22,059 nucleotides of DNA, from positions 1-22,059 of IMG/VR virus record IMGVR_UViG_3300032173_000404; one strand, 5' to 3'. Positions 3,516 through 9,251 of this stretch are shown in pieces. Under the pieces are notes generated by a model. It was not told the DNA's origin. It saw nothing but the letters and a program-made list of their open reading frames with translations, and did no database searches. The stretch's first letter is position 1, and every line of letters begins with the position of its first letter. Both the position numbers and the translations under genes were made by a program. The stretch is from a virus.

Positions 3516-4568
3516 ATGGGCGAGACATACAACTTCAAGAATGCATTTGATGAAACAACAGACCCGACATCTCTTGTCAAGAACTTTCATAACATTAACG
3601 GACCCGGAACAAAACTAAAGGCATGGTTCTACAACTCACAGCGTGCTGATGATGTCGCTGCTATGTTATACGGTGAGAACCCTGTTGGTCCTATTTTCGC
3701 TCGTAAGTATTCACTTCAGGGATTTTTCAGAATGCTTCTGGATGAGGGCTTCATTCCTCGCCTTGTTGGAACTGAGGGTGGCGTCGAGGTTAGTGATAAA
3801 CTCTTCAAGGTTGTAAAAGATGGAACAGAGCGTGGCGACGGTATTTTACAGTTGCTGCAAGTAAGCAAGTTCATCTTTGAAGCAGAGCGTATGCCAGACA
3901 TCAATGCACCTGATTTTGATGGCGTCGCTTTTCTAGTCTGCACTCACGGCGACCCAATGACGCTCAAGTATAATCTTGAGGCTTCAACAGATTTCAATAG
4001 TTCAAAGAATGAAAGGTATGTCATTCGTGGAGCAAAAAGTCAAGCAGAGGTTTATCACGCTGCAAGACATTCAAAAAAGAAGTTACTCATCAACATTCAC
4101 GATGACCTCTACATTCCAAGAAACTGGACAAAGAGAGTTTGGCAGCAGTTTTTTGAGCAGGACGCAAAATCTCCTGTAGGTGTCGCCGGTTTGTTTGGTG
4201 TTTCAGGAAATAGAGAACGCAGTGGTGGCAGAGTTGAGTCGGGTCTTGTAGTAGATCTTCTTGGTATGAGAACACTTGGAACAAACTGGCAGGTGACTGA
4301 TACCAGAGTTCTTGATGGTCTTTGTTTGGTGACTAAAAACGGCTCAGGAATAGTCCCAGATCATTCACTTGGCTTCCATTTCTATGACGCTGACATTTGT
4401 ATGGCTGCAGAGGCATTGGGTCAAAGAGTTATCTCTTTGTTTGCGCCTGCTCTCCATTCAAGTTATGTCATAAATGGTCCTGCAGATTTCAATGTTAGTA
4501 TGGAGATTTTCAAGAACAAGTGGCCTCAAATGCTTCCTGTAGAGACACCCTGCGCACTCGTCAAATAA
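3516..4568 (+). CDS. GT-A glycosyltransferase with StrF-like domain
   Basis: The C-terminal two thirds (about residues 137-345) read as a StrF-like (Glyco_tranf_2_5) domain: VAFLVCTHGDP start, NIHDDLYIP at 193-201 in the place of the metal-binding DxD, WQVTDTRVLDGLCLVTKN, and FHFYDADICMAAEALG near the end. It would transfer a sugar from a nucleotide sugar. The first 130 residues are not part of that domain and contain a GFFRMLLDEGFIPRLV stretch resembling the end of a methyltransferase fold; this is a weak impression. The gene follows the methyltransferase by 6 nt with GAGAG before the ATG. Together they look like a glycan-modifying pair. The acceptor is unknown. Confidence 0.8.
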   Translation: MGETYNFKNAFDETTDPTSLVKNFHNINGPGTKLKAWFYNSQRADDVAAMLYGENPVGPIFARKYSLQGFFRMLLDEGFIPRLVGTEGGVEVSDKLFKVVKDGTERGDGILQLLQVSKFIFEAERMPDINAPDFDGVAFLVCTHGDPMTLKYNLEASTDFNSSKNERYVIRGAKSQAEVYHAARHSKKKLLINIHDDLYIPRNWTKRVWQQFFEQDAKSPVGVAGLFGVSGNRERSGGRVESGLVVDLLGMRTLGTNWQVTDTRVLDGLCLVTKNGSGIVPDHSLGFHFYDADICMAAEALGQRVISLFAPALHSSYVINGPADFNVSMEIFKNKWPQMLPVETPCALVK

Positions 4569-8530: not shown

Positions 8531-8603
8531 AGCAGGAGGGCACAGTGCTCAACTGGGGCTCATAACCCCGGATCGATTGGTGCAAGTCCATTTCCTGCAA
8601 CCA
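8531..8603 (+). tRNA. Initiator-like tRNA-Met (anticodon CAU)
   Basis: Acceptor AGCAGGA faces TCCTGCA: six pairs with an A1.A72 mismatch. The 3' end A-CCA is encoded at 8600-8603. The anticodon stem carries the GGG/CCC block (TGGGG/CCCCG) around loop CTCATAA. An unpaired first acceptor position plus three G-C pairs below the anticodon are the two features that define bacterial initiator tRNA. Oddities are a D arm cut to GCA-CAG-TGC and a T-loop TGCAAGT lacking the usual TTC. Elongator Met or Ile2 cannot be fully excluded. Confidence 0.72.
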
Positions 8604-8606
8604 TTA

Positions 8607-8747
8607 TGTCGTGTCTTACCAGGTGGCGTACGCAACGCTTGCTAAGATGAGTTGGAGAAGTGAATAGGTAGTTGTGTCCAACACCGTGCCCCGCTGGGGG
8701 ATAACACGCAAATGCAGTTGCAACTGCAGAGCCTATTCATCACGGCA
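8607..8747 (+). ncRNA. Unrecognised structured RNA between two CAU tRNAs
   Basis: The 141-nt stretch folds by eye into a nested structure. An outer stem TGTCGTG/CACGGCA (8607-8613 with 8741-8747) is followed directly by a hairpin TCTTA/TAAGA (8614-8618 with 8643-8647) containing GCGT/ACGC. A second long stem TGAATAGG/CCTATTCA (8661-8668 with 8732-8739) encloses GTTG/CAAC, a CGTG-CCCC/GGGG-CACG hairpin (8685-8708) and TGCAGT/ACTGCA (8713-8728). GTTGG 8651-8655 could instead pair with CCAAC 8678-8682, forming a pseudoknot. It is not a tRNA: there is no usable anticodon loop. It starts 3 nt after one tRNA's CCA and ends 9 nt before the next. Confidence 0.6.
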
Positions 8748-8756
8748 CCTTTGTAT

Positions 8757-8827
8757 GCCACATAGGGCGGGATGCCCCGTTGGGTCTCATAAACCTGATC
8801 GCTAAGGTTCGAGTCCTTTTTGTGGCA
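8757..8827 (+). tRNA. tRNA with anticodon CAU (elongator Met or Ile2), reduced D arm
   Basis: Acceptor GCCACAT faces TTGTGGC with six pairs. Anticodon stem TGGGT/ACCTG encloses loop CTCATAA. T stem TAAGG/CCTTT (one T-T mismatch) has loop TTCGAGT. Discriminator is A and CCA is not encoded. Position 1-72 is a normal G-C pair, so it is not an initiator. CAU may read AUG, or AUA if C34 is modified to lysidine. The D arm is GGC-GGGAT-GCC. The 3' end is 1 nt before the RNase P RNA P1 helix. Confidence 0.75.
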
Positions 8828-8828
8828 C

Positions 8829-9077
8829 TGTTGTATCGGACCATCGCGGTGGCTGGAAGGCCTCAGTCAATCGAGGAAGTTCGCTGGTGCTCAGGACAAG
8901 TTGGTTTGCTCTGTGGGAGGGGACACATACGTTTGCCCCGTTTTACCACAACAGACGCTGCACTAAGCCAAACAGATCTTGATGACGCTGTCCGCCGAGA
9001 GATCGGGTTGGTGCTCAGATGAATGATGGTCTCCTGGTAGAACCCAGACAGACAGAACAGCGGCTACAGATACAACA
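8829..9077 (+). ncRNA. rnpB: RNase P RNA (phage-encoded, compact)
   Basis: RNase P RNA is the catalytic RNA that makes the mature 5' end of tRNAs. The ends TGTTGTATC (8829-8837) and GATACAACA (9069-9077) form a perfect 9-bp P1 helix. The 5' conserved block is GAGGAAGTTCGCTGG (8873-8887), matching the bacterial consensus start GAGGAAAGTC. The 3' blocks are AGATGAATGA (9018-9027) and ACAGAACAGCGGCTA (9052-9066), matching AGATGAATGA and ACAGAACCCGGCTTA. P4 is kept by compensating changes: CGCTG 8882-8886 pairs with CAGCG 9058-9062, where E. coli has CCGGG with CCCGG. A CAACAGA block is at 8949-8955. At 249 nt it is much shorter than the usual 350-400 nt, so peripheral helices must be missing. 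The host protein subunit would be needed or borrowed. Confidence 0.85.
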
Positions 9078-9080
9078 CTT

Positions 9081-9100
9081 GGGCTCCTTCACGGGAGCCT
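9081..9100 (+). terminator. Hairpin terminator after the RNase P RNA
   Basis: GGGCTCC (9081-9087) pairs with GGAGCCT (9094-9100), with a 6-nt loop. It begins 4 nt after the RNase P RNA. What follows is GAGTAGTTTATAG, only a weak T tract, so termination may be partial or may need a factor. Confidence 0.6.
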
Positions 9101-9251
9101 GAGTAGTTTATAGATCTATAGTTTAGTATCTTTAGTCTTTAGTAACTACTATCTATTCTGTCTCTTCTTATAGATCTTTCGCTTCTTAGTATAGTAGTAT
9201 AGAGGGTATCTGTATAATAGTATTACTAGTTAGTATGAAAGAGAGCGCCCG
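9101..9251 (+). promoter_or_regulatory. AT-rich promoter/regulatory gap with repeated sites
   Basis: This non-coding stretch is far more AT-rich than its surroundings. It holds a perfect 12-bp palindrome TATAGATCTATA at 9109-9120, with a partial copy TATAGATCT at 9169-9177. TTTAGT occurs three times (9122, 9131, 9138) and AGTAT-type repeats follow. A TATAAT hexamer at 9213-9218, preceded by TG, is a candidate -10 for the nuclease/glycan gene group starting at 9252. No convincing -35 is visible, so a phage-modified or factor-assisted promoter is possible. Confidence 0.5.

Follow-up and report, generated by a model that had tools for sequence, protein, structure and literature searches.

We identified, at positions 8607–8747 of an uncultured phage record, what is very probably a real and previously unlisted phage RNA gene, to judge from its comparison with a homolog in a sister phage. 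For this RNA, hereafter RNA-X, the two sequences compared establish a predicted secondary structure with a pseudoknot and invariant loops, a genomic association with the genes for tRNA-Met and RNase P RNA, and a non-coding nature. RNA-X is a new RNA family, although settings of the kind in which it occurs are known.

The Phage Record and the Setting of RNA-X

The window (the whole stretch of DNA analyzed) is the entire 22,059-base IMG/VR record IMGVR_UViG_3300032173_000404, which belongs to a tailed phage and encodes an endolysin, tail and baseplate proteins, and a late-sigma-like protein. ARAGORN identified eight tRNAs and one tmRNA in it; the latter (2547–2927; RF00023, 124.8 bits) carries the tag AKFLKNLVAANETMNFALAAA, and a tmRNA was also present in the relative L004. 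A search with the neighboring glycosyltransferase led us to a sister phage in IMG/VR, L003 (78% protein identity), whose DNA can be aligned with the window from position 8743 rightwards, across tRNA-Met and RNase P RNA. The features of the locus are listed in table 1.

Table 1. RNA-X and flanking features in the window, with the corresponding state in the sister phage L003
Feature	Position	Strand	Remarks
Initiator-like tRNA-Met(CAU), encoded CCA	8531..8603	+	Read from sequence
RNA-X, structured RNA, 141 nt	8607..8747	+	Homolog L003:4540-4663, 124 nt
P1 5' strand UGUCGUG	8607..8613	+	Pairs with 8741-8747; L003 keeps 7/7, 5 double changes
P2 hairpin, UCUUA/UAAGA base	8614..8647	+	Adjacent to P1
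AGAUGA, invariant	8645..8650	+	AGA closes P2, UGA unpaired
Pseudoknot 5' strand GUUGGA (L003 GGCAGU)	8651..8656	+	6/6 pairs kept, 4 double changes
GAA, invariant, joins pseudoknot strand to P3	8657..8659	+	
P3 5' strand GUGAAUAGG	8660..8668	+	Pairs with 8732-8740; 9/9 kept, 6 double changes
GUUGUG, invariant, unpaired	8671..8676	+	
Pseudoknot 3' strand UCCAAC (L003 ACUGCC)	8677..8682	+	
P4 hairpin CGUG-CCC...GGG-AUAA-CACG	8685..8708	+	Outer 4 bp kept, 2 double changes
16-nt palindromic hairpin TGCAGTTGCAACTGCA	8713..8728	+	Insertion in window copy only; absent from L003
P3 3' strand CCUAUUCAU	8732..8740	+	Directly abuts P1
P1 3' strand CACGGCA	8741..8747	+	
U-rich spacer, 9 nt (8 nt in L003)	8748..8756	+	Before tRNA-Met
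tRNA-Met (CAU), conserved neighbor	8757..8828	+	ARAGORN; L003 4672-4742
Phage RNase P RNA, reduced specificity domain	8829..9077	+	P1 8829-8837/9069-9077; AGATGAATGA at 9017

RNA-X, tRNA-Met, and RNase P RNA occur in the same order and with similar spacing in L003. Packing in the window is tight, with 3 nt between the initiator-like tRNA and RNA-X, 9 nt between RNA-X and tRNA-Met, and 0 nt between tRNA-Met and RNase P RNA. The initiator-like tRNA, called by neither ARAGORN nor Rfam, has three G:C pairs around a CUCAUAA loop and an unpaired 1:72 position (A:A), and the D-loop of tRNA-Met apparently measures 5 nt (in the window, GGGC-GGGAU-GCCC). No tRNA lies directly upstream of RNA-X in L003, where a 39-aa open reading frame ends 4 nt before it; because the initiator-like tRNA is absent there, the conserved unit consists of RNA-X, tRNA-Met, and RNase P RNA. 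An earlier note on this DNA had described the RNA as filling the space between two tRNAs and being freed by tRNA end-processing alone. The two short gaps bear out the first point for the window but not for L003, and, the upstream tRNA being missing from L003, release by tRNA processing alone is not a conserved property.

Two further observations were made around tRNA and RNase P genes in this group. At 9082–9240 of the window, a hairpin 3' of the RNase P RNA is followed by AT-rich short repeats ahead of an exonuclease gene, and a similar repetitive stretch occurs in several relatives (e.g., L004:4600-4740). In the related phage L005, a strongly folded RNA (3946–4022; 11-bp outer stem, z −6.3) with no visible sequence likeness to RNA-X lies between tRNA-Met and tRNA-Ser.

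Comparative Evidence for a Conserved Structure

The window copy of RNA-X has a minimum free energy of −48.7 kcal/mol (z −1.54), a value reached by 16 of 200 shuffled sequences. As folding energy is ordinary in both copies (z about −1.5) and energy alone is thus unremarkable, the evidence beyond chance is comparative. Folded independently, the L003 copy adopts the same architecture. Across P1, P3, and the pseudoknot, all 22 pairs of the window are kept in L003, 15 of them through double changes, and out of 200,000 shuffled versions of the 3' strands not one matched this score, although with two sequences such counts are a guide and not a formal probability. MAFFT placed P1 one base off, and P1 was therefore counted by direct comparison of its strands, in a register set by hand. 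In the alignment of P2–P4 and the pseudoknot, both sequences form 26/26 pairs (12 double changes), and sliding the partners by 1–3 columns reduces pairing to 40–48%; this covariation amounts to one comparison between two sequences, in a partly hand-made alignment.

The stems have retained their pairing while their letters turned over, with only 1/7 and 2/7 identical positions in the two strands of P1 and 3/9 and 1/9 in those of P3. Conversely, the segments AGAUGA, GAA, GUUGUG, and AC are invariant between the two copies, with identical spacing. Predicted stems that are turned over and joined by invariant linkers are typical of structured RNAs that are functional. P2 occupies an intermediate position, its basal UCU/AGA being the same in both phages and its upper part diverged (it is an 8-bp stem in L003). 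P4 carries an A-rich bulge on its 3' side.

Most of the fold proposed in the earlier note withstood this comparison. Its outer 7-bp stem and the hairpin adjacent to it were found where it had placed them (P1 and P2), the former with 7/7 pairs surviving in L003 and the latter present in the independent L003 fold. Its second stem exists and its pairs are conserved, but it comprises 9 bp rather than 8, and the pseudoknot, which has the support of compensatory changes, extends to 6 bp instead of 5. Among the three hairpins placed inside the second stem, P4 is conserved, but the GUUG/CAAC hairpin and the one at 8713–8728 are not. Relatives with stems broken by uncompensated mutations would have spoken against the proposal; in the one relative compared, L003, the stems survived. 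The note's statements that the RNA lacks protein-coding sense and an anticodon loop also held, since no reading frame is open across both homologs and neither ARAGORN nor the Rfam tRNA model finds a tRNA at 8607–8747. A tRNA-like cloverleaf with T-arm and anticodon arm was not found in RNA-X, which shows no T-loop motif.

The strand that forms the pseudoknot can also form a local hairpin, GUUG-UGUC-CAAC, preferred energetically in the window. Releasing the two strands of the pseudoknot takes about 3 kcal/mol, whereas their duplex is worth −6.3 in the window and −8.5 in L003, loop penalties not included. This competition bears on a reading of RNA-X as a cis-acting leader, in which the nascent RNA, as an attenuator or riboswitch-like element that yields no free product, would govern either how far transcription continues into tRNA-Met and RNase P RNA or how these two are processed. 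In both phages RNA-X stands directly upstream of these two genes, P1 of L003 is followed by a terminator-like U6, and the position of the L003 copy 4 nt after a short reading frame makes a cis-acting role possible. On the other hand, L003 retains the pseudoknot but has lost the local hairpin formed by that strand, so that there is no sign of a conserved switch; the window does not preserve the U-run (CCUUUGUAU); and our promoter and terminator scan, in which no signal stood out, found no terminator after RNA-X. Riboswitches, moreover, normally sit ahead of coding regions. We regard such a leader as unlikely, though the least so of the alternatives to a free RNA.

Search for Further Members and Known Families

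No known family matches RNA-X in Rfam at gathering or permissive thresholds; Rfam 15 returned only chance-level matches (TCL6_3, E-value 3.7; tpke11, E-value 4.7). Nucleotide similarity searches of phage records likewise gave only chance matches, one of them to a tRNA-Met. We scanned IMG/VR and the GTDB species genomes with the pattern AGATGA-N6-GAA(G)-...-GTTGTG, filtering for the pseudoknot and P3, and L003 alone combined the two, no third member being found. The match in L223 was rejected, as its six pairable pseudoknot positions arise by chance and P3 reaches only 6/8. A covariance model, R1, which leaves out P1, the 16-nt insertion, and one loop base, and in which the scores of the two founder sequences follow by construction, retrieved only L003 from 20 related phage records, many of which are fragments, making absence weak evidence. 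With a structural descriptor applied to the relatives, a 61-point match elsewhere on the minus strand of the window tied with the true L003 match, so that the descriptor alone is unable to identify members. Resemblances to 5S rRNA, 6S, SRP, tmRNA, and HDV-like RNAs were rejected on topology or for want of an Rfam match.

Comparison with RNAs Encoded Near Phage tRNA Genes

The RNAs nearest in kind to RNA-X, yet unrelated to it, are those of the T4 tRNA cluster, annotated as two "small, stable RNAs", rnaC (species 1 RNA, 139 nt) and rnaD (species 2 RNA, 119 nt). Like RNA-X, they are non-coding, adjoin phage tRNA genes, and measure about 120–140 nt. However, no homology is detectable, R1 finding nothing in the T4 region, and the fold of rnaC, a long arm and hairpins with a T-arm-like 3' hairpin, contrasts with the H-type pseudoknot of RNA-X, which has no T-arm. 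GOLLD and ROOL are structured RNAs of phages and mobile elements, frequently located near tRNA genes. They differ from RNA-X in that they span several hundred nucleotides and are homo-oligomeric (for their structures, see PMC12286853), and no Rfam family matches RNA-X.

Theta ribozymes, which are HDV-like, adjoin tRNA genes of gut phages, often tRNA-Met, and the one shown in a published gel is 56 nt long, is cleaved where the tRNA ends at its 3' side, and behaves like HDV (PMC10879173). RNA-X might by analogy be a self-cleaving ribozyme separating the RNAs of a putative operon. It shares with theta ribozymes a pseudoknot and a place beside phage tRNA genes (PMC10879173), possesses invariant unpaired segments, and in the window begins 3 nt past the 3' end of a tRNA. 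It is nonetheless larger and of another topology: the nested double pseudoknot of HDV was not found, as the crossing helices of RNA-X are not separated by a hairpin of the P3 type, none lying between a P2-like 5' strand and a P1-like 3' strand. No Rfam ribozyme matches it at an E-value of 10 or below, and with no tRNA immediately upstream in L003, there is no evident cleavage site common to both phages. A ribozyme thus seems improbable to us, more so than a leader.

RNase P RNA of the Phage Lineage

At the level of sequence, the RNase P RNA is genuine in this phage lineage. The L003 copy (L003:4744-5009) belongs to RF00010 (E-value 1.8e−14) with a strongly shortened specificity domain; the window copy, itself unmatched in Rfam, is its homolog on the grounds of synteny and 64.8% identity. 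L006, which is more distantly related, has an unmistakable class A RNase P RNA (RF00010, 166.9 bits) within a tRNA cluster, likewise trimmed, and RNA-X was not detected in its record. The location noted for this L006-type RNase P RNA is L176:1501-1788 (minus strand). L003 was the only match retained in an RNase P pattern scan, candidates in L094 and L095 having been rejected because they look protein-coding. An exact-phrase search for phage-encoded RNase P in open-access papers, a body of literature that leaves most subscription journals outside its coverage, returned no paper.

RNA-X and class A RNase P RNA (RF00010), encoded next door to each other, both have an outer P1 helix around a pseudoknot; yet their helix order differs, RNA-X lacks the CR-I/CR-V motifs, and the two are not homologous. 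RNA-X could still act with the RNase P RNA, either as a second subunit in trans or as a decoy. The two genes are linked in both phages, much of the specificity domain is lost from the L003 RNase P RNA, and the invariant GUUGUG of RNA-X complements an invariant CACAAC of the RNase P RNA, the sole conserved complementarity between them. Against this, such complementarity arises in about 31% of shuffles, so that docking through these segments was rejected as not above chance, L006 has a trimmed RNase P RNA and no detected RNA-X, and specificity-domain motifs are absent from RNA-X. We therefore give a partner or regulator of RNase P little credence, and still less its most elaborate form, a two-RNA RNase P in which trans-acting RNA-X would help a reduced phage enzyme to replace or bias host tRNA processing. 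Nor did the decoy, guide, or RNase P regulator suggested in the earlier note find specific support. Its broader proposal, a new RNA class tied to translation or RNase P, stands insofar as RNA-X is structured, outside Rfam, and located beside tRNA-Met and RNase P RNA, but not as to role.

A Proposed Stable RNA Processed from a Non-Coding Operon

Tight packing (3, 9, and 0 nt) together with the lack of coding potential points to an RNA gene within a processed non-coding operon. By a modest margin over even odds, we favor RNA-X being a non-coding RNA gene of its own, cut from the tRNA/RNase P transcript, stable and trans-acting. A short operon comprising RNA-X, tRNA-Met, and RNase P RNA, with the initiator-like tRNA added in front in the window, would be transcribed as a single unit. 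RNase P, cutting where tRNA-Met begins at its 5' end, would then separate RNA-X and free its 3' side, and exonucleases would trim the short U-rich tail back to P1. The mature RNA, roughly 125–140 nt, would persist as a compact particle in which P1 abuts P3 on one strand, P2 lies alongside, and J2/3 forms a knot with the loop of P3. The exposed invariant segments (UGA, GAA, and GUUGUG) would offer a surface to which a protein or RNA from the phage translation or RNA-processing set could bind, and contact with such a partner is their most likely role.

Phages endowed with tRNAs, a tmRNA, and even an RNase P RNA seem to assemble their own RNA side of translation, and RNA-X, whose place among these genes is conserved, may belong to this set as a part that had been missing. 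The role of the stable RNAs in the T4 tRNA cluster is a long-standing question, for which RNA-X would provide a second, unrelated example, one that offers a well-defined pseudoknot and invariant loops as targets for mutation.
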